From Actinomycetota bacterium (GTDB taxonomy: Bacteria; Actinomycetota; Acidimicrobiia; IMCC26256; PALSA-555), in contig VGBR01000004.1 of the NCBI GenBank assembly GCA_016870355.1, positions 62,001-126,000 of the forward strand: a stretch of DNA of 64,000 nucleotides. Reading direction: 5' to 3'. Shown here piece by piece: positions 36,983 through 49,784 of the stretch. Both the position numbers and the translations under genes were made by a program. Below the pieces are notes generated by a model. It saw only the letters and a list, made by a program, of their open reading frames with translations, made no database searches and was not told where the DNA came from. How positions within the stretch are numbered: position 1 is the first letter of the stretch; the number at the start of each line of letters is the position of its first letter.

Positions 36983-37438
36983 GTGGGCAAGTGGTCGCGC
37001 GAAGAGATCGAAGAGGCGTTCCAGACGTTCCAGGACCGCGCCAAGGTCGCCGGCAAGAGCCACGACTGGACGGAGTGGTCGGAGTGCTTCACCGAGGACG
37101 CCGACTACTACGAGCACCACTACGGCCGGATGAAGGGCCGTGCCGAGATCCTCGCCTGGATCCAGTCGACGATGAACGAGCCGCTGTTCGCCGAGATGAC
37201 CGCGTTCCCGATCGACTGGTACATGATCGACGAGGAGCGCGGCTGGATCATGTGCCAGGTCGCCAACGTGATGGACGACCCCGGTGACGGCAGCGACCAC
37301 CGTGAGTACAACTGGACCCTGCTCCACTACGCCGGCAACGGGCAGTTCTCCTATGAGGAGGACATGTACAACCCGACCGAGTTCGGCGAGATGGTCAAGG
37401 GCTACCTGAAGGCCAAGAAGGCTGCGAAGGGGTCCTGA
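36983..37438 (+). CDS. SnoaL-like/NTF2-fold protein
   Basis: A 151-residue alpha+beta barrel protein of the NTF2/SnoaL superfamily. The long first helix (EEIEEAFQTFQDRA), WSECFTEDADYYEHHYGRM and GRAEILAWIQSTM are typical for the pocket. The family includes ketosteroid isomerases and hydratases, so a dehydratase/isomerase role fits the surrounding genes. The GTG start follows GAGGGGGG. It is divergent from the MFS gene across the KstR-like box and is followed at 37519 by an LLM gene. Confidence 0.85.
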   Translation: MGKWSREEIEEAFQTFQDRAKVAGKSHDWTEWSECFTEDADYYEHHYGRMKGRAEILAWIQSTMNEPLFAEMTAFPIDWYMIDEERGWIMCQVANVMDDPGDGSDHREYNWTLLHYAGNGQFSYEEDMYNPTEFGEMVKGYLKAKKAAKGS

Positions 37439-37446
37439 CCCGAAAC

Positions 37447-37460
37447 TAGAACGTGTTGCA
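37447..37460. promoter_or_regulatory. Possible KstR-like half-matched box upstream of LLM gene
   Basis: TAGAACGTGTTGCA keeps the TAGAAC half and AAC-GT-GTT core of the KstR consensus but the right half is imperfect. It lies 59 bases upstream of the ATG at 37519, where a promoter would sit. TAGAAC might alternatively serve as a -10 element. Confidence 0.35.
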
Positions 37461-37518
37461 TTTTTGTGGTGCCCGACGTACGATCCCCCGGTTCTTCCCG
37501 GCTGAGTAGGAGCACGCC

Positions 37519-38709
37519 ATGGAGTTCGGACTGTTCAACAGCGGGTACACGCCGCGTCAGTCGTACGAAGACGAAGCGGATCAGTGGGCCGTCGAGCACC
37601 AGCGACTCCAGAACGAGGTCGCCTGGACCGTCGCGGCCGACAAGGCCGGGTTCAAGTACTCGTGGGCGACCGAGCACCACTTCCTCACCGAGTACTCGCA
37701 TCTCTCATCGAACGAGGCGTTCATCGCGTATCTGCTCGCCAAGACCGAGCAGATCCACATGGGCAGCGGCATCTTCAACATCACGCCGCCGGTCAGTCAC
37801 CCCGCGCGCATCGCCGAGAAGGTGGCGATGCTCGACACGCTCTCGAAGGGACGCTTCGAGTTCGGCGTCGGGCGCGGCTCATCGACGACGGAGCAGCGCG
37901 GGTTCGGGATCGACGACCCCGAGCTGACCAAGGAGATGATCGACGAGGTCCTGCCCGAGTTCAAGAAGATGTGGCGAGAGAGCTCGTACAGCTTCGACGG
38001 CAAGTTCTTCAAGATGCCACCGAGGAACGTGCTGCCGAAGCCGTACAGCGACCCCCACCCGCCGATGTGGATCGCGGCCGGCAACCCGGGCACCTTCGAG
38101 AAGGCTGCGCAGATGGGCCTCGGCGTCCTCTGCTTCACGATGGGTGCGCCCGAGCAGCTGGCAACGCTGATCGAGGTCTACAAGAAGAACATCGAGAAGG
38201 CCGAGCCCGCGGGTGAGTACATCAACAACAACATCATGGTGACGAGCCAGATGCTGTGCCTCGAGGACGGCCAGAAGGCGCGCGACATCGCGGTCAACAT
38301 GACGTCGCGCTTCCAGAACAGCCTCGTGTTCCACTACCTCGACACGTTCCCGCAGCCACCGGGCATCCCCCAGTGGCCCGCGCTCATCCCCGAGCCGACG
38401 CCTGACGAGCTCGACGCCGACATCAAGGCCGGCAACGTCTGCATCGGCACGCCCGACGAGGTCGACAAGGCAGTGAGGCGCTACGAGGATGCCGGCGCTG
38501 ATCAGCTCGTGTTCGGGATGCTCTCGACGACGATGCCGATCGAGATCGCCATCGAGGCGACCGAGACCTTCGGCAAGCACATCATCCCGAAGTACGACAA
38601 GGACAAGGTCCATTCGACGACGCGCCAGCGCGAGGCATTCACAAAGAAGCGCGGCCCACGCAAGAAGACCGAGCTCGGGCTCGCGGTCGACAAGCTGCCC
38701 GTCACGTAA
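37519..38709 (+). CDS. LLM-class flavin/F420-dependent oxidoreductase
   Basis: A 396-residue luciferase-like monooxygenase of the long type with the alkanal monooxygenase look: MEFGLFNSGYTPRQSYEDEA opening, YSWATEHHFLTEYSHLSSNE, LDTLSKGRFEFGVGRGSSTTE. It is longer than the F420 members at 23508 and 34402 and could use FMN with an external reductase. The ATG has GGAG about 8 bases upstream. It is followed 8 bases later by an SDR gene. The role is hydroxylation or hydride transfer in the KstR-box neighbourhood; the substrate is unknown. Confidence 0.9.
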   Translation: MEFGLFNSGYTPRQSYEDEADQWAVEHQRLQNEVAWTVAADKAGFKYSWATEHHFLTEYSHLSSNEAFIAYLLAKTEQIHMGSGIFNITPPVSHPARIAEKVAMLDTLSKGRFEFGVGRGSSTTEQRGFGIDDPELTKEMIDEVLPEFKKMWRESSYSFDGKFFKMPPRNVLPKPYSDPHPPMWIAAGNPGTFEKAAQMGLGVLCFTMGAPEQLATLIEVYKKNIEKAEPAGEYINNNIMVTSQMLCLEDGQKARDIAVNMTSRFQNSLVFHYLDTFPQPPGIPQWPALIPEPTPDELDADIKAGNVCIGTPDEVDKAVRRYEDAGADQLVFGMLSTTMPIEIAIEATETFGKHIIPKYDKDKVHSTTRQREAFTKKRGPRKKTELGLAVDKLPVT

Positions 38710-38717
38710 GCCGGAGC

Positions 38718-39557
38718 ATGGGCGCGCTCGACGGTCGGGTCGCGCTCGTCACCGGGGCCAGCCGGGGCATCGGTGCCGGCATCGCCCAGCGCTTCGCCGC
38801 TGAGGGTGCCGCGGTCGCGGTGACCGCCCGCACGCTCGCGACCGGTCCCGATGACGCGCTCCAAGGAGGGTTGGACGACACCGTCGCGCTGATCGAGGCC
38901 ATGGGTGCCCGGTCGTTGGCGATCGCGGCCGATCTCAGCGACGCCGACGCCCGCGCTCGCATCGTGCCAACCGTCGAGGACACGCTCGGTCCCATCGACA
39001 TCCTGATCAACAATGCGGCCGCCGCGATGTACATGTCGAATGCGGACATCCCGCTCAAGCGTCGGCGGTTGACGTTCGAGCTCAACTTCCATGCGCCGAT
39101 CGATCTCGCACAAGCCGTCATCCCTGAGATGCGCTCGCGGGGCGCGGGTTGGATCGTCAACATCTCGAGTGCGACGAAGAAGCACCCGAAGGGTCCGCCG
39201 TTCGATGCCGGGCTCGGCAAGCTCAGGTTCACCACCGGCACGTACGGTGCGTCGAAGGCGGCCCTCGATCGGTACACCACGGCGCTCGCCGCGGAGCTCT
39301 GGCCGGATCGGATCGCCGTGAACTCGTTGGCGCCCGTCGCGGCCGTGCGCACACCCGGCGCCGACCTGCTCGTCGGCGATGTGATGGACGCCAACCCGAA
39401 CATCGTCGAGTCATTGGAGCTCTTCGTGGAGGCCACGCTGGCGCTGGCGACGTGCGACCCGGCAACGACCACCGGCCGCCTCCTCTACTCGCGCCCGTAC
39501 CTCGACGAGATCGAACGCGACGTGCGCGGGCTGGACGGACGTCCGTTCAGGGCTTGA
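38718..39557 (+). CDS. Short-chain dehydrogenase/reductase
   Basis: A 279-residue SDR: TGASRGIGAG (residues 12-21), DILINNAAAAMYM, IVNISSATKK and catalytic YGASK (about residue 175). The insertion after ATKKHPKGPPFDAGL is longer than in FabG-like enzymes and resembles peroxisomal trans-2-enoyl-type or hydroxysteroid dehydrogenase SDRs. It is the partner of the upstream LLM gene. The last 11 bases overlap the converging Nudix gene. Confidence 0.92.
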   Translation: MGALDGRVALVTGASRGIGAGIAQRFAAEGAAVAVTARTLATGPDDALQGGLDDTVALIEAMGARSLAIAADLSDADARARIVPTVEDTLGPIDILINNAAAAMYMSNADIPLKRRRLTFELNFHAPIDLAQAVIPEMRSRGAGWIVNISSATKKHPKGPPFDAGLGKLRFTTGTYGASKAALDRYTTALAAELWPDRIAVNSLAPVAAVRTPGADLLVGDVMDANPNIVESLELFVEATLALATCDPATTTGRLLYSRPYLDEIERDVRGLDGRPFRA

Positions 39558-41371: not shown

Positions 41372-43720
41372 ATGCTGACCGGGGTACGGGTCGTCGACTG
41401 TTCCACCGGGATCGCGGGTGGCTACTGCACGAAGCTGCTCGCCGATGCGGGCGCGGACGTGGTCAAAGTCGAGCCGCCCGATGGTGACCCGTTGCGCCAC
41501 TGGCGATCCGGCGCGCTGTTCGAGTTCCTGCACACCTCGAAGCGATCGATCGTCGGCGATCCTCGCGACGCAAGCGTGCTCGAGCTGTGTGCGCGCGCCC
41601 ACATCGTCGTCGAGAGCAGCGCACCCCAGTCGTTCCCGGCGACCGAGCTCCTCGAGCGCCGCCCCGATCTCGTCATCGCGTCGATCACGCCCTACGGGCA
41701 GGACGGTCCGTGGGCGGCGTGGGCTGCGACCGAGTTCACCCTTCAGGGGTGGTGCGGCTCGACGAGCTCACGCGGCTTGCCCGAGCAGCCACCGATCGCC
41801 GCTGGTGGGCGGATCGGCGAGTGGGTGTCGGGCACCTACGCCGCGGTCGGTGCCATCGCGGCCATGCGTGCCGCAGCCCGCGATGGCTTCGGCGAGCACG
41901 TCGACGTCGCGTGGCTCGACTGCATGAGCGTCACGATGAACACCTTCACCTCGGTGTTCGCCGAGTTCAGCGGGTGGCCCGAGATGCGCCGCCCCACCCG
42001 TACGATCGAGATCCCCTCGATCGAGCCCAGCTCGGACGGATACGCGTCCTTCACGACGAACTCGGCCCCACAGTGGGGTTCGTTCCTCGTCCTGATCGGG
42101 CGGGAGGACCTCGAGCACGACCGGGACCTCGCTGGCGCGCTCGGCCGGTTCAAGCGGCGCGACGAGGCGCTCGAGCTCATCCGCGCGCACACGACGCAGC
42201 ACACGACCGCCGAGCTGCTCGAGACCGCGACGCTGCTGCGCATCCCCTGTGGTCCGGTCGGGAACGCGTCCACGGTCACCACCTTCGATCACTTCGTCGA
42301 CCAGGGGACGTTCGTGCCCAACCCGAGCGGTCGCTTCGTGCAGCCGCGCGTCCCTTATCGGATCTCGGGCCTCTCCACACGCGCGATGGACCCTGCCCCG
42401 GCGCTCGACGCGCACCGCGACACTGTCGCGTGGCCCGTCCTGGAGAGTCACAACGACGGAAACCGAGGCCCTGACTCTCCAGAACGAGCTGGGCTGCCGC
42501 TCGCCGGGATCCGGGTGCTGGACCTGACCGCGTGGTGGGCCGGGCCGGCCGCGACGACGATGCTGGCGAACCTCGGCGCCGACGTGATCAAGGTGGAGTC
42601 GATCACCCGGCCCGACTTCATGCGCTACACGAGCACCAAGCCCCCGACCGAGGATCGATGGTGGGAGTGGGCGCCGCTGTACCACGGCGCCAACAACTCC
42701 AAGCGCGGGATCACGCTCGACCTCACCCGTCCGGAGGGTCGCGCGCTCCTGCTGCGCATGGCCGAGAAGGCCGACGTGATCCTCGACAACTTCACGCCGC
42801 GGGTGATGGAGCAGTTCGAGCTCGATTGGGAGCACGTCCATGCCGTCAACCCGCGGCTCATCCAGGTGCGCATGCCGGCGTACGGGCTGACCGGTCCCTG
42901 GCGCGATCGCACCGGGTTCGCGCAGACGATGGAGGCCATCACCGGGATGGCATGGGTCACGGGTTGGTCCGACGGGCCGCCGGTGATCCCCCGGGGCGCC
43001 TGCGACCCCTTGGCCGCGATGCACTCGGTGTTCGCCACGCTCCTCGCGCTGCGCGATCGCGAGCAGTCAGGCCAGGGCCGGTTCGTCGAAGTCACCATGA
43101 TCGAAGCGGCGCTGAACGCAGCGGCCGAGCAGGTGGTCGAGTTCGGCGCGAGCGGCGAGGTGCTCGAGCGCAGCGGCAACCGCGGTCCGCTCGGTGCCCC
43201 TCAGAACCTGTACGCGTGTGAAGGACACGAAGAGTGGGTCGCGCTTGCAGTGGTCACCGACGACCAGTGGGACGAGCTGAAGCAGGTGCTCGGCTCACCG
43301 CCTTGGGTCCTCGATCCCACGTTTGCGACGGTCGCCGGGCGACGCGCCGCGCACGACCAGATCGACGAAGCGCTCGCTCGGTTCTTCAAGGACCGTGACG
43401 CGCAGACGGTCGCCGGCGCGCTCGCGGCACGCGGCGTACCGGCGAGCTACGTCGTCGACGGGCGCGACATCGCCAAGAACCCGCAGATGCTCCACCGCGG
43501 GCTGTTCGAGATCGAAGATCATCCCGTCACCGGTCCGCATCCCGTGCCGACGGTGCCGTTCCGGTATCGGCGCCGCGCCAACAGCTGGATGCATCGACCG
43601 TCGCCGACCCTGGGGCAGCACAACGACGAGGTCTTGAAGGAGTACCTCGATCTCTCGGACGACGACCTTGCGCAACTGCGCGACGACGGCATGATCGGCG
43701 ACCGTCCAGTGGGCACATGA
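41372..43720 (+). CDS. Fused tandem CaiB/BaiF-family CoA transferase
   Basis: A 782-residue protein made of two class III CoA-transferase domains. The first starts at LTGVRVVDCSTGIAGGYC (residues 2-19) and the second at LAGIRVLDLTAWWAGPAATT (about residue 378), each with the GADVVKVE / GADVIKVE strand. At the position of the catalytic Asp of formyl-CoA transferase, the first half has LDC and the second IEA (Glu), so perhaps only one half carries full activity. The family moves CoA between carboxylates, usually as an interlocked dimer; the fusion supplies both chains in one polypeptide. It starts a four-gene coupled operon with thiolase, DUF35 and a small membrane protein. Confidence 0.9.
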   Translation: MLTGVRVVDCSTGIAGGYCTKLLADAGADVVKVEPPDGDPLRHWRSGALFEFLHTSKRSIVGDPRDASVLELCARAHIVVESSAPQSFPATELLERRPDLVIASITPYGQDGPWAAWAATEFTLQGWCGSTSSRGLPEQPPIAAGGRIGEWVSGTYAAVGAIAAMRAAARDGFGEHVDVAWLDCMSVTMNTFTSVFAEFSGWPEMRRPTRTIEIPSIEPSSDGYASFTTNSAPQWGSFLVLIGREDLEHDRDLAGALGRFKRRDEALELIRAHTTQHTTAELLETATLLRIPCGPVGNASTVTTFDHFVDQGTFVPNPSGRFVQPRVPYRISGLSTRAMDPAPALDAHRDTVAWPVLESHNDGNRGPDSPERAGLPLAGIRVLDLTAWWAGPAATTMLANLGADVIKVESITRPDFMRYTSTKPPTEDRWWEWAPLYHGANNSKRGITLDLTRPEGRALLLRMAEKADVILDNFTPRVMEQFELDWEHVHAVNPRLIQVRMPAYGLTGPWRDRTGFAQTMEAITGMAWVTGWSDGPPVIPRGACDPLAAMHSVFATLLALRDREQSGQGRFVEVTMIEAALNAAAEQVVEFGASGEVLERSGNRGPLGAPQNLYACEGHEEWVALAVVTDDQWDELKQVLGSPPWVLDPTFATVAGRRAAHDQIDEALARFFKDRDAQTVAGALAARGVPASYVVDGRDIAKNPQMLHRGLFEIEDHPVTGPHPVPTVPFRYRRRANSWMHRPSPTLGQHNDEVLKEYLDLSDDDLAQLRDDGMIGDRPVGT

Positions 43721-44922
43721 GCGCGACGGACCTTGACTGGGGTTGGGCCCACGACTACGAGAACATCAGCGGCGAAGTCGCCATCTGCGGTGTTGGCGAG
43801 TCTGACCACTCGAAGGCATCGGGTCGCACGACGAGCGACATCGTCGGTCAAGCCGTCGAGCGCGCGCTCGAGGATGCGGGACTGGAGCCAACCGACGTCG
43901 ATGGCCTCATGTACATCCCGATGGCCGAGCAGATGGACGTCGCTGCGTTCCATGAGTACTTCGGCACGAGCCACGACATGTGGGAGTCGAAGGGCGGGGG
44001 TGGGATGACCCACGGCGCCGCCGCACCGTACGCAGCATCCCAAGCTCTGCGCGACGGACAAGCGAGCGTGATCCTCAACACCTTCGGAGTCGCGTGGGCC
44101 ACGCAGCGATCGCAGATGACCGGCGGCCCGGGTGAGTCGCACGCCCAGGAGCTGTTCAAGCAGAACCTCGAGATCCCGATGGGGTGGTTTCCGCAGCCGG
44201 TGTACTTCGCCACGGTGGCGCGTCGGCACATGTTCGAGTTCAGCACCACACAACAACAGCTCGGCTCGATCGCGGTCGCACAGCGCCGCAACGCGAACCA
44301 CACGCCGGCCGCGGTCATGCACGAGAAGACGCTGACGATGGAGCAGTACCTCGCCGCGCCCACGATCGTGGCGCCGTTCCGTAAGGAGGACTGCTGCCTC
44401 ATCTCCGATGGCGGCGGCGCCTACCTGATGACCTCCGCCGAGCGCGCCAAGGACATGCGGCAACAGGTGGTCGAGGTGGCCGGCGTCGGCCTCGGCAACT
44501 CACACACCGGCACGCACTGGGCGCAGCAGTCGCCGTTCACCTCGACGCCGCAGGTGTTCGCCGCGCCGGTCGCGTTCGACATGGCCGGGATCACGCACGC
44601 GGACGTCGACCTCTACACCTGTTACGACCCGTTTACGATCCACACGTTGATGCAGCTCGAGGACTCCGGCTTCTGCAAGAAGGGCGAGGGCGGCGCGTTC
44701 GTCGAAGGTGACTGCTTGCACTTCGACTCGGGCAAGCTGCCGACGAACACCCATGGTGGACTGCTGTCACACGCGTACGTGCTCGGCATCGCGCACGTGG
44801 TGGAGGTCGTGCGTCAGCTGCGCGGCCAGGCCGCCGCGCAAGTCCCCGACGCCGAGATCGGAATCTATGGCGGCTACACCGGACCCCAAGCCGCCACCCT
44901 CATCCTGCGCAAGGCGCGCTGA
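43717..44922 (+). CDS. Thiolase-superfamily lipid-transfer-type protein (possible retro-aldolase subunit)
   Basis: A 401-residue protein of the SCPx/Ltp2 thiolase branch. GEVAICGVGESDHSKASGRT opens it; DVDLYTCYDPFTIHTLMQLE and LPTNTHGGLLSHAYVLGIAH carry the characteristic Tyr and His positions, and the active-site Cys of true thiolases is absent from the first domain. In actinobacterial steroid degradation such proteins pair with DUF35 proteins to form aldolases that remove a side-chain fragment. Here the DUF35 gene follows directly with a one-base overlap (TGATG). The ATG overlaps the CaiB stop (ATGA). Confidence 0.87.
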   Translation: MSATDLDWGWAHDYENISGEVAICGVGESDHSKASGRTTSDIVGQAVERALEDAGLEPTDVDGLMYIPMAEQMDVAAFHEYFGTSHDMWESKGGGGMTHGAAAPYAASQALRDGQASVILNTFGVAWATQRSQMTGGPGESHAQELFKQNLEIPMGWFPQPVYFATVARRHMFEFSTTQQQLGSIAVAQRRNANHTPAAVMHEKTLTMEQYLAAPTIVAPFRKEDCCLISDGGGAYLMTSAERAKDMRQQVVEVAGVGLGNSHTGTHWAQQSPFTSTPQVFAAPVAFDMAGITHADVDLYTCYDPFTIHTLMQLEDSGFCKKGEGGAFVEGDCLHFDSGKLPTNTHGGLLSHAYVLGIAHVVEVVRQLRGQAAAQVPDAEIGIYGGYTGPQAATLILRKAR

Positions 44923-45356
44923 TGGAGACCCGGCGAGAGTTCCCGCTACCGGACACGTCGTGGGAGCCGATCCGCGAGTTCTGGGCGGGCGCGGCTGCGA
45001 ACGAGCTGCGGATCCCTCGCTGCGCCTCGTGCGGTCGACTGTGTTGGTACCCCCGTGAGCGTTGCCGTCAGTGTGACGGCGAGGGATTCGCCTGGGAGGC
45101 AATGAGCGGCCGCGGCACCCTCTTCTCGTGGGTGGTCGTCACGCATCCATTTCTCCCCCAGTTCGGTGACCTGACCCCATTCGCGCCGGCATTGGTCGCG
45201 CTCGAAGAAGACCCTTCGGTGCGGCTGGCAACCCGCATGGTTGAGTGCGACCTCGACGCCCTGGAGTTCGAGATGCCGGTGCGCGTCGAGTTCCGACCCC
45301 TCATCTTCACCGATGTCGAGGGTGAAGTCACCGCTCCCCTTTTCGTGCCGGCATGA
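44922..45356 (+). CDS. DUF35 zinc-ribbon/OB-fold protein
   Basis: A 144-residue DUF35 protein. A helical start (WEPIREFWAGAAANELRIPR) is followed by a four-Cys rubredoxin-like zinc ribbon (CASCGRLCWYPRERCRQC, about residues 35-52) and an OB fold (GRGTLFSWVVVTH to FRPLIFTDVEG). DUF35 proteins bind CoA thioesters and partner thiolase-like proteins. Gene order, spacing and domain content match thiolase/DUF35 aldolase pairs. The next start overlaps its stop (ATGA). Confidence 0.9.
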   Translation: METRREFPLPDTSWEPIREFWAGAAANELRIPRCASCGRLCWYPRERCRQCDGEGFAWEAMSGRGTLFSWVVVTHPFLPQFGDLTPFAPALVALEEDPSVRLATRMVECDLDALEFEMPVRVEFRPLIFTDVEGEVTAPLFVPA

Positions 45357-45706
45357 ACGCGCTCGACGACCCGGGGATCGATCCCGACACGTTCATCGCG
45401 GTCGAGCCGAAGTGGTGGCTCTCCAACTTCGGCGGGATGGTGGCGTTCGGGTTGATCGTGAGCCGATCACGCTCACGGTTCATGCACCTCGGGTTCCGCA
45501 CCGCCGTCGCCCTGCACGTCGGCGAAGCGATCTACGCGTACCGCAAGGCTCTCCAGGCTGGCTTCGGCTCCAGTGCCCATCGTTGGGCACTTCAGACGCT
45601 CGGGGTCGGCTTCCCGTCGCTCATCGCGCTCAACGACGCCGTCGCTCGTGCTGGTCTCGACCCGGTCGAGATCGACCTCACCGACCGAGCTCGGGCCACA
45701 TCCTGA
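45353..45706 (+). CDS. Small membrane protein (DUF4499-like)
   Basis: A 117-residue protein with about three hydrophobic helices (WWLSNFGGMVAFGLIVSRSR, the RTAVALHVGEAIYAY segment, LQTLGVGFPSLIALNDAV). The arrangement resembles the DUF4499/TMEM254-type membrane proteins. It is translationally coupled to DUF35, so it belongs to the CaiB-thiolase-DUF35 operon, perhaps as a membrane anchor or carrier; that is inference. Its 3' end overlaps the converging amidohydrolase by 29 bases. Confidence 0.6.
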   Translation: MNALDDPGIDPDTFIAVEPKWWLSNFGGMVAFGLIVSRSRSRFMHLGFRTAVALHVGEAIYAYRKALQAGFGSSAHRWALQTLGVGFPSLIALNDAVARAGLDPVEIDLTDRARATS

Positions 45707-46490
45707 CGGCGTTGCCGCCGAGGTAGTCGGCGTGCTGTTCGTCCGGCAGCTTCGCGGCACCCTTTCGGCCCCACTCGGCCAACTCGTCGTACGGACGGTC
45801 ATGGGTCTGCGAGAAGTCCGAACCCCACATGAGCCGGCCGTCGAAGTGGGCGGCGAGCTCACCAACCGCTTCGGCTGCGTCCCCGTAGGCGGCCATCAGA
45901 TCCAGCGTGATCGACGAGACCTTCAGGTAGACGTTCGGGAAGGGCGCAAGGGCCAAGAGTGCGTCGGGCAGGCCCTGAGAGAAGTCGGCGAACCCGCAAT
46001 GATCGAGCGCCAGGGGGATCGCCGGAAGAGCCCGAATCGTGTCAGCGAGCTCGGCCAGGCGATCAGGAAGCACCGTCACCACCGTCGGCACGTCCAGCGA
46101 CGCGATGGCCTCCCAGAGCGCGCGGGGCTCTCGCACGCCCTCGCCTCGGACGGCGAACCAGCGGATACCTCGCATCCTTTGGTCGTGCACGATCCCGTTG
46201 GCCTGGTCGACGGCGTCACGAGCAGTCACATCGACCGCTCCAACGCTCGTACACCGCTCGGGAAAGCGGCGCGCGCTGTGCGCGCAGTACCAGTTGTCGT
46301 AACTGTACGCGCTCACCGCTTGCACGAGCACCGCGGCGGCAACCTCGGCGTTGTCCATGAGCTCGATGAGTCGCTCGATCGTGCACGGAGCTTCTCGGTA
46401 CCACTCATCGGTGAAGTTGCGCGGCTGCAATGGGAACTGCGCCTCGTCGGCGCTGACCACGTGGACGTGCGTGTCGACGAGCACGATCAA
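45678..46490 (-). CDS. Amidohydrolase (PF04909-type), compact form
   Basis: A 270-residue amidohydrolase of the TIM-dicarboxylate hydrolase/ACMSD group, much shorter than the other copies. VDTHVHVVSADEAQFPL is the metal motif at residues 5-21, LALDHCGF is the mid barrel and MWGSDFSQTHDRPYDEL the late Asp. The start is TTG at 46490, overlapping the MFS stop (TTGA), which implies coupling; GTG at 46484 is the alternative. It is the last gene of a four-gene unit: amidohydrolase, SDR, MFS, amidohydrolase. Confidence 0.85.
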   Translation of the reverse strand: MIVLVDTHVHVVSADEAQFPLQPRNFTDEWYREAPCTIERLIELMDNAEVAAAVLVQAVSAYSYDNWYCAHSARRFPERCTSVGAVDVTARDAVDQANGIVHDQRMRGIRWFAVRGEGVREPRALWEAIASLDVPTVVTVLPDRLAELADTIRALPAIPLALDHCGFADFSQGLPDALLALAPFPNVYLKVSSITLDLMAAYGDAAEAVGELAAHFDGRLMWGSDFSQTHDRPYDELAEWGRKGAAKLPDEQHADYLGGNAVRMWPELGR

Positions 46491-47782
46491 TCCGCTCCGG
46501 GGATCGTCGGCTGGTTGGTGAGCAGCGGATCGGCATGCACCGGCGACGCGGTCGGGACCGTCTCGTCGAGCGGTCCCATCGCAGCGAAGGTGACACGCGC
46601 AACGATCGCGAACGCGAGGATCGCGCTGGCGCCGCCGATGATCGTCGCGCGCAGCCCGATGCCATCTGCGACCGCGCCACCGGTGAGTGCACCCAACGGC
46701 ACCCCCGCGAGCAACCCCATCAAGTAGATGGCCAGCACCCGACCGCGGTGGCTCTCGTCGACCCGGGCCTGGATCGAGGTGTTCATCGCCACCGCGATGA
46801 ACATGTAGGCGACGCCCATCCCGGCGAGCCCGATGAGGCTGACCACGTACGCCGCGGCGCTGCCGAACACGAGCTCGCCGCCCGCAAACATCACGAGGCC
46901 CGCCATGGCCATGCGAGATCGGCGGACGCGGTCACCGATCGCGAGGTTCGCGAAGGTCCCGAGCACCGCCCCGATCCCGAACGACGCCACCATGAAGCCG
47001 AAGTTCGCCTTCCCGACCTCGAGGACCTCTCTCGCGAACGGCGCGCAGAGATGGACCGAAGACGATCCGAAGAACGAGACGATGAAGATGGTGATGACCG
47101 GGACCACGAGCGCCCGCCGCTGCCGCACGTACTGCACGCCGGCACGGAAGTGCTCGAGGACCCGGGGCGGGGCGGCCGGAAGGTCCACCGGCCGCGGCTG
47201 GATGGCCACGAGGGCCGCGAGCACGACCACGAACGAGAGCGCGTTGACTCCGAAGGCCGTGCCCGCGCCGAACTCGGCGAGCACGATGCCGGCCAGCGCT
47301 GGCCCGAACGCGCGCGCCGCGGTGAACTGCACCGAGTTCAGACGGATCGCGCTGAACATGTGGTCGGGTGGCACGAGCTGTGGGATGAATGCCTGCCACG
47401 ATGCGATCCCGAGCCCCGATCCGATCCCGGAGATCGTCATGAGCGCGACGATCGCCTCCGGTGACGCGGCTCCCGTCGTCCAGACCGCCCACAACCCGAT
47501 CGCGGCGAACATCATCAGGGCCTGGGTCACGAGCACCACCTGCTTGCGGGGAAACCGGTCCGCGAACGACCCACCGATCGGACCCACGGCCACTCCCGGG
47601 AAGATCGCCATGAAGGCGCTGAAACCCACCCACGTCGGCGAGTGCGTCATGCGGTCGATCACGAACGGCACCGTGATGGTCTGCATCCAGTTGCCCGAGT
47701 TGGACACGATGGCGCCACACCAAAAGAGCCAGTAGTCACGCGCCTTCAGGGCAACGAGCGCGCCCTCATTGCCTGCGGTCAT
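46487..47782 (-). CDS. MFS transporter, 12-helix (MFS_3, EntS-like)
   Basis: A 431-residue major facilitator. DYWLFWCGAIVSNSGNWMQT opens it, followed by FSAFMAIFPGVAVGPIGGSFADRFPRK in motif A position, and about 12 hydrophobic segments. The MFS_3 group exports siderophores and small organics. It is third in an operon between an SDR and an amidohydrolase; four-base overlaps on both sides (ATGA upstream, TTGA downstream) show tight coupling. It may move a substrate or product of the two amidohydrolases. Confidence 0.9.
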   Translation of the reverse strand: MTAGNEGALVALKARDYWLFWCGAIVSNSGNWMQTITVPFVIDRMTHSPTWVGFSAFMAIFPGVAVGPIGGSFADRFPRKQVVLVTQALMMFAAIGLWAVWTTGAASPEAIVALMTISGIGSGLGIASWQAFIPQLVPPDHMFSAIRLNSVQFTAARAFGPALAGIVLAEFGAGTAFGVNALSFVVVLAALVAIQPRPVDLPAAPPRVLEHFRAGVQYVRQRRALVVPVITIFIVSFFGSSSVHLCAPFAREVLEVGKANFGFMVASFGIGAVLGTFANLAIGDRVRRSRMAMAGLVMFAGGELVFGSAAAYVVSLIGLAGMGVAYMFIAVAMNTSIQARVDESHRGRVLAIYLMGLLAGVPLGALTGGAVADGIGLRATIIGGASAILAFAIVARVTFAAMGPLDETVPTASPVHADPLLTNQPTIPGAD

Positions 47783-48552
47783 GCATCCGTGTCGAGCGCG
47801 TTGAAAGGCCCCGCCAGATAGCCGCCGTCGACGACGAACTCCGCGCCGGTGCAGTACGCGCTGGCGTTCGACGCGAGCCAGCAGACGAGCTCGGCGACCT
47901 CCTCTGGCTGGCCGATGCGGCCGAGTGGGTTGCTCGTCGCGAGCGCGGGCCGCATGTCGAAGCCGCCCCACGACTCGGGCTGCACCATCGGCGTGTCGAT
48001 CGGACCGGGATGCACCGAGTTCACGCGCACGCCACGCCGACCGAGCTCCAACGCCGCCACCTTGGCCAGGCCACGCAGCGCGAACTTGCTCGTGACGTAG
48101 CCCGCGATCCCACCGGCGCCGACGAAGCCGTTCACCGACGAGATGAGCACGATCGATCCCCCGCCCGCGGCGACGATCGCGGGCGCGGCGGCGCGAATGC
48201 CGAGGAAGGCGCCGACCTGGTTCACCTCGATCACGCGGCGGTAGTCGTCCGGCGAGGTGTCGACGATCGGCGTCGGCATGGACGAGATGCCTGCGTTGCT
48301 CACCAAGACGTCGAGATGCCCGAACTCGTCGATCGCAACGTCGACGGCGGCGGCCCAGTCCAGCTCACTCGTGACGTCGAGATGGTGGTACACGGCGCGA
48401 TCGCCGAGCTCTCCGGTCACGGCTGCGCCTTCTTGGTCGAGGACGTCGCCGAGCACGACCCGTGCGCCCTGGCTCGCGAACAACCGCGCTTCCGCCGCTC
48501 CTTGCCCGCGCGCTGCCCCAGTGATGAGCGCGACCTTGCCGTCGAGTCTCAC
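47779..48552 (-). CDS. Short-chain dehydrogenase/reductase
   Basis: A 257-residue SDR with TGAARGQGAAEARLF (residues 10-24), LDVTSELDW, SNAGISSMPTP and YVTSK (catalytic Tyr/Lys, about residue 155). The tail GYLAGPFNALDTDA is close to 3-alpha-(20-beta)-hydroxysteroid dehydrogenase-like SDRs. The GTG start overlaps the upstream amidohydrolase stop (GTGA) and its stop overlaps the MFS start (ATGA). It would act on an alcohol or ketone formed by the neighbouring amidohydrolases. Confidence 0.92.
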   Translation of the reverse strand: MRLDGKVALITGAARGQGAAEARLFASQGARVVLGDVLDQEGAAVTGELGDRAVYHHLDVTSELDWAAAVDVAIDEFGHLDVLVSNAGISSMPTPIVDTSPDDYRRVIEVNQVGAFLGIRAAAPAIVAAGGGSIVLISSVNGFVGAGGIAGYVTSKFALRGLAKVAALELGRRGVRVNSVHPGPIDTPMVQPESWGGFDMRPALATSNPLGRIGQPEEVAELVCWLASNASAYCTGAEFVVDGGYLAGPFNALDTDA

Positions 48553-49730
48553 TCCAGCGTGTCGGGGACGTGGTCGAGCTTGTAGAGCGCCTTGCAGTTG
48601 TCGTGGAGCATCGCCTTCACTTCGTCGCGCGGCAGCCCACGGAAGTTGCGCTCGATCGACACTCGGTTGTTGGGCCACTCGGTGCCGGTGTGCGGATAGT
48701 CGGTCGCCCACATGATGTGCGCGAGGTTGAGCCGATGCCGCAGCTCCATGCCAACGGTGTCGACCATGAAGGTTGCCCAGAAGTTCCGATGGAAGATCCG
48801 GCTCGGCATCGTCTGCATCTGCTCCACGCCGTTCGTGAACCAGCGGTAGCGCAGGAACATGTCGTCGACCTGCTCGAGCAGCGTCGGGATCCACCCGATG
48901 TTCGCTTCCACCAGCAGCAGCTTCAGTCCCGGGAATCGCTCGAAGATGCCCGAGAAGATCAGGTCACACACCACCGGCAACGTGTTGGCGCCGGCCTTGC
49001 TCGCGCCGGCCACACCCATGAACGCGAGGGTGTCGAGCGCGGGTGGCTTGTCCACGGCGACACCCTTCACGAAGCTCCCGATGTGCGCGGCGATCGGGAG
49101 GTCGGCGTCCTGCATGAACGACCAGAACGGTTCGTCTTCGGGAGCCGGGTCGAGGCTCCCGTTCGGGAACGCCGACATCACCACGCCGCGGTGCCCGAGC
49201 TCCACGCAACGCTTTGCTTCGTCGATGGCGTCGTCGACACCGGTGGTCGGCAGGATCCCCTGCCCGACGAGTCGGCCTTCCGAGCCTTCGCAGAACTCCG
49301 CGAGCCATTCGTTGTACGCCCGCACGCACGCGATCTGAAGCGCGGGTTCGTCGCCGTAGATCTTGGCTCCCGACAGCGTGACGCTCGGGTAGAGAACCTG
49401 GAGCCAGATGCCGTCGGCATCCATGTCGGCGAGCCGAGCTTTGGTGTCGAAGCTCCCTGGTCGCATGTCGTCGTAGGTGATGCCGGCCGGCTTGAACTGG
49501 AGGTACGACAGGCCAGCCGTCGCGGTGAGCCCGACCGGCCGCATCGACTTCCCGTCGTCGAAGGACCACACGTCGCCGTGCTCGGTGTTGAGCACCTTCG
49601 GTGCGCGGTCCTTGAACTTCGACGGGACTCGCGCCTGCCACGTGTCAGGCGGCTCGTTGACGTGCGCGTCGGAGTCGAGGATCGGGTAGCCGATGCTCGC
49701 GACCTCGCTGAAGATCGACTGGTCAACCAT
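48549..49730 (-). CDS. Amidohydrolase (PF04909-type)
   Basis: A 393-residue amidohydrolase-2 protein that heads the four-gene operon. Motifs are LDSDAHVNEPPDTWQ (about residue 18), IAAHIGSFVKG in mid barrel, VEANIGWIPTLLEQVDD, and ATDYPHTGTEWPNNRVSIE near the end. The ATG at 49730 is favoured over an upstream in-frame ATG because the extra residues (RSRTGKWSYGP) look non-homologous. It is divergent from the beta-lactamase-like gene at 49785. The reaction is unknown. Confidence 0.9.
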   Translation of the reverse strand: MVDQSIFSEVASIGYPILDSDAHVNEPPDTWQARVPSKFKDRAPKVLNTEHGDVWSFDDGKSMRPVGLTATAGLSYLQFKPAGITYDDMRPGSFDTKARLADMDADGIWLQVLYPSVTLSGAKIYGDEPALQIACVRAYNEWLAEFCEGSEGRLVGQGILPTTGVDDAIDEAKRCVELGHRGVVMSAFPNGSLDPAPEDEPFWSFMQDADLPIAAHIGSFVKGVAVDKPPALDTLAFMGVAGASKAGANTLPVVCDLIFSGIFERFPGLKLLLVEANIGWIPTLLEQVDDMFLRYRWFTNGVEQMQTMPSRIFHRNFWATFMVDTVGMELRHRLNLAHIMWATDYPHTGTEWPNNRVSIERNFRGLPRDEVKAMLHDNCKALYKLDHVPDTLE

Positions 49731-49784
49731 GGGGCCATACGACCACTTGCCCGTTCGGGACCGCAACTGCGAGGGTCATGGCCC

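Follow-up and report, generated by a model that had tools for sequence, protein, structure and literature searches.

What might a bacterium do with a coenzyme A (CoA) transferase, a thiolase-fold enzyme, a DUF35 protein and a small putative membrane protein whose genes each run into the next? The question is raised by a 64,000-nucleotide stretch of DNA from an Actinomycetota bacterium (contig VGBR01000004.1, positions 62,001 to 126,000; hereafter the window), where four plus-strand genes at 41372-45706 encode, in this order, a two-domain class III (CaiB/BaiF) CoA-transferase, a thiolase-fold protein, a DUF35 protein and a TMEM254-family protein. With gene starts picked from coupling and homology, all three junctions overlap (ATGA at 43717, TGATG at 44920, ATGA at 45353), and the Pfam matches are all above cut-off: CoA_transf_3 twice, Thiolase_C_1, zf-ChsH2 with OB_ChsH2_C, and TMEM254. 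The open reading frames thus agree with the coupled four-gene operon, and with the fused transferase at its head, that an earlier note had described from this DNA. Such coupling is not chance, because the gene order recurs in other genomes of the same family and the overlap between the CaiB and thiolase genes is kept. We tentatively read the locus, with a little less than even confidence, as part of a catabolic module in which CoA transfer, beta-hydroxylation by a nearby PF04909 enzyme and retro-aldol cleavage would together break down a bulky carboxylic acid.

The argument begins with the thiolase-fold protein (401 amino acids; 43717-44922, plus strand). Its nearest solved structures in a PDB search are 4u4e (E value 1e-61) and TcLtp2 (6ok1, E 1e-46), an aldolase in which Tyr294 acts as base and Tyr344 as acid (PMC12329534). 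Counted along the printed alignment to TcLtp2, these residues correspond to Tyr303 and Tyr354 of the window protein; all 22 members of its clade that were compared keep the two tyrosines, and none of the 22 has a Cys at the position of the thiolase nucleophile. The AlphaFold model of the protein, made from a seven-row alignment, has a mean predicted local distance difference test score (pLDDT) of 31, and the active site is read from sequence alone. The adjoining DUF35 protein (144 amino acids; 44922-45356, plus strand; PF12172 and PF01796, a zinc ribbon and an OB fold) is expected to be the partner subunit of the aldolase. It resembles the DUF35 chains of 9myr, 6esq and 6ok1, and Cys34, Cys37, Cys48 and Cys51 (C-x2-C-x10-C-x2-C) are invariant in 9/9 sequences, a C4 zinc pattern as in ChsH2 and not the Cys3His of Shy. 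Because both catalytic tyrosines are kept, the thiolase Cys is missing and the DUF35 protein carries this C4 pattern, the pair is best read as a putative Ltp2-type retro-aldolase with a DUF35 subunit, in a distinct subfamily with the motif YDPF at Tyr303. The tyrosine pair likewise speaks for the earlier description of the protein as an Ltp2-like thiolase. The Sal-Shy bile acid aldolase of proteobacteria (CtSal) is also a thiolase-fold aldolase bound to a DUF35 domain, with Gly rather than Cys at the nucleophile position, but it has Tyr302 and Cys304, and a Gln for the second Tyr, where the window enzyme has Tyr and Tyr.

The transferase (782 amino acids; 41372-43720, plus strand; PF02515 matched twice, 568 bits) appears to combine two subunits in one chain. 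For its C-terminal half, the nearest solved structure is a subunit of benzylsuccinate CoA-transferase (9fn0_B, E 5e-64). In the N-terminal half, Glu150 aligns with a column that is Asp in the formyl-CoA transferase 2vjo and Glu in its variant 1vgr; we take this column to be the catalytic Asp169 of that enzyme, and 1vgr to be the D169E mutant. Asp545, in the C-terminal half, is kept in 59/59 two-domain CaiB proteins and Glu150 in 55 of them, so that a catalytic Asp is found in one half and is absent from the other. This pattern suggests a non-catalytic and a catalytic subunit fused head to tail in the layout of BbsE and BbsF, a class III transferase made of two subunits that has a single catalytic Asp and whose pathway also includes a thiolase/DUF35 pair. 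The halves are joined in one chain here, unlike those of BbsEF, yet CaiB-CaiB fusion is not new in itself, because DddD too carries two CaiB domains in a single chain (PMC7174347). By description, DddD cleaves dimethylsulfoniopropionate unaided, whereas here transferase and cleaving enzyme would be separate proteins. A scan of the collection for fused CaiB proteins found only two named loci, in Frankia nepalensis and in a metagenome-assembled actinomycete genome, neither with a thiolase/DUF35 pair nearby.

CaiB genes near thiolase/DUF35 pairs are in themselves not unusual. Genomes are cited here by handles, G000 being the window's own; many are incomplete assemblies, and counts of adjacency are lower bounds. 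Five relatives in the window's family (G040, G032, G033, G035 and G038) have CaiB, aldolase, DUF35 and TMEM254 in this order; G042 shows it too, with the contig ending inside CaiB, and in G036 and G037 the set is split across contig ends. The CaiB-aldolase junction reads ATGA or GTGA in all six readable relatives, and the DUF35-TMEM254 junction does so in five. Across the order, the YDPF aldolase clade is present in 34 of 58 genomes, and at E 1e-100 a sample of 395 other genomes of the phylum contained no member of it. At least 27 of these 34 carry a two-domain CaiB within 2 kb of the aldolase: 10 of the window's family, and 17 of other families in which the CaiB gene lies downstream, after DUF35 (linkage in G046, G051 and G018 was taken from coordinates only). 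In a tree of two-domain CaiB proteins, strongly supported branches separate the linked set of the other families from that of the window's family, which sits among non-linked CaiB proteins; the two linked subfamilies are 38-45% identical and occur in opposite gene orders. From this split and the two orders, we conclude that the same predicted aldolase/DUF35 pair is joined to two CaiB lineages. G005 and G006 offer a third pairing, in which CaiB is joined by another thiolase/DUF35 pair, the thiolases sharing about 35% identity. The conserved core, judged by these comparisons, is aldolase, DUF35 and two-domain CaiB; the four-gene order of the earlier note does recur, and is specific to one family. 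The same note's proposal of a module for CoA transfer and retro-aldol cleavage is well supported, as a prediction, by Asp545, the Ltp2 tyrosine pair, the C4-zinc DUF35 protein and the order-wide linkage of the three genes. Our literature search found no paper on a CaiB-DUF35-thiolase operon of this kind.

A retro-aldolase would need a beta-hydroxyacyl-CoA, and a gene that the earlier note overlooked may provide it. At 48552-49766, on the minus strand, lies a gene for a 405-amino-acid protein that is a PF04909 'amidohydrolase' by Pfam and belongs to the PtmU3/DitZ branch by the PDB search, a probable dinuclear-metal oxygenase. PtmU3 (6omp, E 7e-43) and DitZ (8uyr, E 3e-37) are its nearest solved relatives; decarboxylases follow only at E 1e-12. 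CoA-bound diterpenoid intermediates are hydroxylated by PtmU3, a non-heme diiron enzyme (PMC7782822, PMC10127204), and the dinuclear oxygenases of PF04909 form a class that is just emerging (PMC10811679). All six core metal ligands (Asp33, His35, His228, Glu287, Asp356, His359) are invariant in 8/8 sequences, as expected of a dinuclear oxygenase such as PtmU3, AibH2 or SfbO, and the gene differs from those of PtmU3 and DitZ in being clustered with an aldolase/DUF35 pair and CaiB. An orthologue is near the module in most genomes of the window's family; in two other families (G045 and G031) an orthologue of the same subfamily (at least 60%) lies between DUF35 and CaiB, and in G005 and G006 the subfamily adjoins other two-domain CaiB genes. 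We consider this protein the best candidate for making the beta-hydroxyacyl-CoA on which the aldolase would act. Separately, the Rhodococcus gordoniae plasmid pDND3A (L206:6781-11537) carries in tandem a single-domain CaiB, a related amidohydrolase and a 756-amino-acid CoA transferase, the last of two-domain CaiB length; this trio is a possible relative, in a named organism, of the oxygenase/transferase pair.

From the domains and catalytic residues of the proteins, and from the coupling and conserved linkage of the genes, all described above, we infer the activities, their order, the complex and the substrate of the following route. The two-domain CaiB would load the acid with CoA taken from a thioester donor, with Asp545 of the C-terminal half as catalytic residue and the N-terminal half as non-catalytic partner. 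The PtmU3/DitZ-like enzyme would then hydroxylate the beta carbon of the acyl-CoA, using O2 and a two-metal center. Finally, a complex of the YDPF aldolase and DUF35, with Tyr303 as base and Tyr354 as acid, would split the beta-hydroxyacyl-CoA by retro-aldol cleavage, releasing a short acyl-CoA together with an aldehyde or ketone. TMEM254 would play an accessory part, perhaps keeping the enzymes close to the membrane in the window's family. Because the relatives of these proteins are diterpenoid or steroid enzymes, the substrate is probably a bulky acid of polycyclic or alicyclic structure. This three-step chain is the simplest one that uses all conserved parts. A broader version is possible, though we doubt it more than we believe it: that the module, with its new aldolase subfamily, is an O2-dependent alternative to beta-oxidation that works without acyl-CoA dehydrogenase or hydratase, and serves this order of uncultured actinobacteria in the breakdown of polycyclic or alicyclic acids.

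Several observations weigh against this route. In TcLtp2, the His of the YDHF motif, while not itself the acid or base, helps to hold the oxyanion, and its replacement costs about 14-fold (PMC12329534); in the window's clade this oxyanion-hole His is replaced by Pro305 in all 22 members. PtmU3 has a further metal ligand, Glu313 (Asp342 of AibH2); the aligned residue is Gly361 in the putative oxygenase and Ser in G031, with an acidic residue (Glu or Asp363) two positions on in 8/8, and Gly361 leaves the two-metal site in some doubt. Nor is the oxygenase gene part of the operon, being 3 kb from the module on the opposite strand, and in other families most clusters are without a close orthologue beside them. 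In G031, moreover, an acyl-CoA dehydrogenase gene directly follows CaiB, and therefore ordinary beta-oxidation could supply the aldolase substrate.

The lack of close oxygenase orthologues and the dehydrogenase gene of G031 suit a reduced alternative, one that we judge quite possible but short of likely, in which only the CoA-transferase and the aldolase belong together, the acid arrives already beta-hydroxylated or becomes so through an ordinary dehydrogenase and hydratase encoded elsewhere, and the PF04909 protein carries out an unrelated hydrolysis or decarboxylation. The transferase and aldolase residues fit it equally well, and dehydrogenase genes similar to that of G031 accompany thiolase/DUF35 pairs and CaiB on Rhodococcus plasmids. 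Against it, the PF04909 protein matches PtmU3 and DitZ far better than it does decarboxylases, and its gene is repeatedly a neighbor of two-domain CaiB genes; no acyl-CoA dehydrogenase or hydratase was identified among the annotated genes at 32.3-55.5 kb of the window.

An improbable alternative would make the thiolase/DUF35 pair a genuine thiolase or C-acyltransferase, like BbsAB and PhlBC, that performs the end step of a bbs-like beta-oxidation. The kinds of gene are indeed those of the bbs operon, a two-part CaiB with a thiolase/DUF35 pair, and the NCBIfam models of BbsA and BbsB match weakly, at scores that fall far short of the cut-off. But the nucleophile Cys is absent throughout the clade while both Ltp2-type tyrosines are kept, the PDB search places the window protein much closer to TcLtp2 than to BbsB, and no hydratase, bbsCD-like gene pair or bbsG/H/CD-like set was identified in the operon.

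We consider it similarly unlikely that the module is simply the genome's Ltp2-ChsH2 system for steroid side chains, despite the fold, tyrosine pair and C4-zinc DUF35 partner that it shares with TcLtp2. The same contig carries, outside the window, an igr-like locus (G000:C4, about 133956-142159; L178:1956-10172). There a true Ltp2, which matches TcLtp2 at E 7e-193, is accompanied by acyl-CoA dehydrogenases and by a ChsH2-like protein of 321 amino acids in which MaoC is fused to DUF35; beside them is a further two-domain CaiB that shares 35% identity with the window transferase. The window aldolase is 29% identical to this Ltp2, has YDPF for YDHF, is adjoined by a two-domain CaiB and is paired with a free-standing DUF35 protein that lacks the MaoC hydratase fusion of ChsH2 and Shy. 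Because the genome holds this separate locus, the window module, so far as gene content tells, is not the steroid enzyme itself. The genome's own Ltp2 has a Cys close to the place of the thiolase nucleophile, and therefore loss of the Cys separates the window clade from thiolases without defining Ltp2. Probing for steroid ring-degradation genes (model HsaB) gave only a match below cut-off.

That the module runs in the synthetic direction, as an aldol or Claisen-like step of lipid or terpenoid biosynthesis, is most improbable: aldol reactions are reversible, and PtmU3 is itself biosynthetic, its beta-hydroxylation preparing ring cleavage in platensimycin biosynthesis, but in our judgement the neighbors (an MFS transporter, SDR oxidoreductases, lactonase-like, luciferase-like (LLM) and AMP ligase genes) look catabolic and the order-wide spread is unlike that of a secondary-metabolite cluster.

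The last of the four coupled genes encodes the TMEM254-family protein (PF14934; 117 amino acids; 45353-45706, plus strand; 49.9 bits against a cut-off of 23), which the earlier note had called a small membrane protein and a possible point of substrate delivery. Family membership is clear and the AlphaFold model has three main helices (mean pLDDT 84), yet hydropathy peaks at only 0.85-1.15 (19-residue Kyte-Doolittle mean), where 1.6 is the usual threshold for a clear membrane span. Neither Foldseek nor VIA-align found a convincing solved relative of the model, and our literature search found no paper on the function of bacterial TMEM254/DUF4499. The gene is present in 10 of 12 genomes of the window's family, nine times after DUF35 and once, in G039, after CaiB; elsewhere in the order it occurs in five genomes, never beside the aldolase module. 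In G041 (L155:6180-6195) the DUF35 frame runs straight into what appear to be the last TMEM254 codons, so that the gene is cleanly absent, and the remaining module and flanking genes are 66-88% identical to those of the window. An apparent truncation of the thiolase and DUF35 genes in G041 was rejected as a run of N in the assembly. Because of this clean absence, and because it is never beside the module outside the family, we take TMEM254 to be a family-specific accessory, added late. Its place in the earlier four-gene module thus holds for most of the family and lies outside the conserved core. That it anchors the module in the membrane is a guess, and delivery of the substrate there finds little support in so weakly hydrophobic a protein; the MFS_3 transporter that recurs in these clusters is the likelier carrier.

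Other contexts of TMEM254 are of some interest. In the small-genome relative G039 (L030:4569-7189), TMEM254 comes directly after CaiB, and the YDPF aldolase and the PtmU3-like gene are both missing, an arrangement suggesting that TMEM254 may belong with the transferase. In G049 (L029:8994-9800) Pfam places TMEM254 in one chain with a Ddn-like F420H2-dependent quinone reductase domain, G015 (L021:4678-5481) encodes the same fusion by sequence likeness, and in G027 and G028 the gene is beside one of nitroreductase type. The fusions hint at a role for TMEM254 as a module that places redox or lipid enzymes at the membrane; in the window it shares an operon with CoA enzymes.

The genes around the module are conserved as well. 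Its 3' end overlaps by a few codons a convergent minus-strand gene (45678-46490) for a second PF04909 protein, by Pfam, which is distantly like 2-pyrone-4,6-dicarboxylate lactonase (4d8l, E 1e-8) and is a conserved convergent neighbor in six relatives. Next on the minus strand are the MFS_3-family transporter (PF05977; 46490-47782) and an SDR oxidoreductase (Pfam adh_short_C2; 47782-48552) that adjoins the putative oxygenase gene. Orthologues of this SDR, 62-85% identical, are beside the oxygenase in G040, G042, G037, G035 and G041. In clusters of another family (L139:11579-12874 and L151:10589-11875), an MFS_3 gene closely follows two-domain CaiB and is itself followed by an MDMPI_N gene. Upstream on the plus strand (36983-39557), SnoaL-like, LLM and SDR genes, assigned by Pfam, are syntenic in the family, and orthologues of the LLM and SDR genes, 74-82% identical, adjoin the module in G041 and G037.

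If the proposed route is correct, BbsEF-type transferases, PtmU3-type oxygenases and Ltp2-type aldolases, each known apart from the others, would be joined in a single degradation route. The YDPF proteins would add a new active-site variant to a superfamily that draws interest for the biocatalysis of steroids and terpenoids. Many genes of uncultured actinobacteria that are now annotated as 'amidohydrolase', 'CoA transferase' or 'thiolase' would then gain a testable function.

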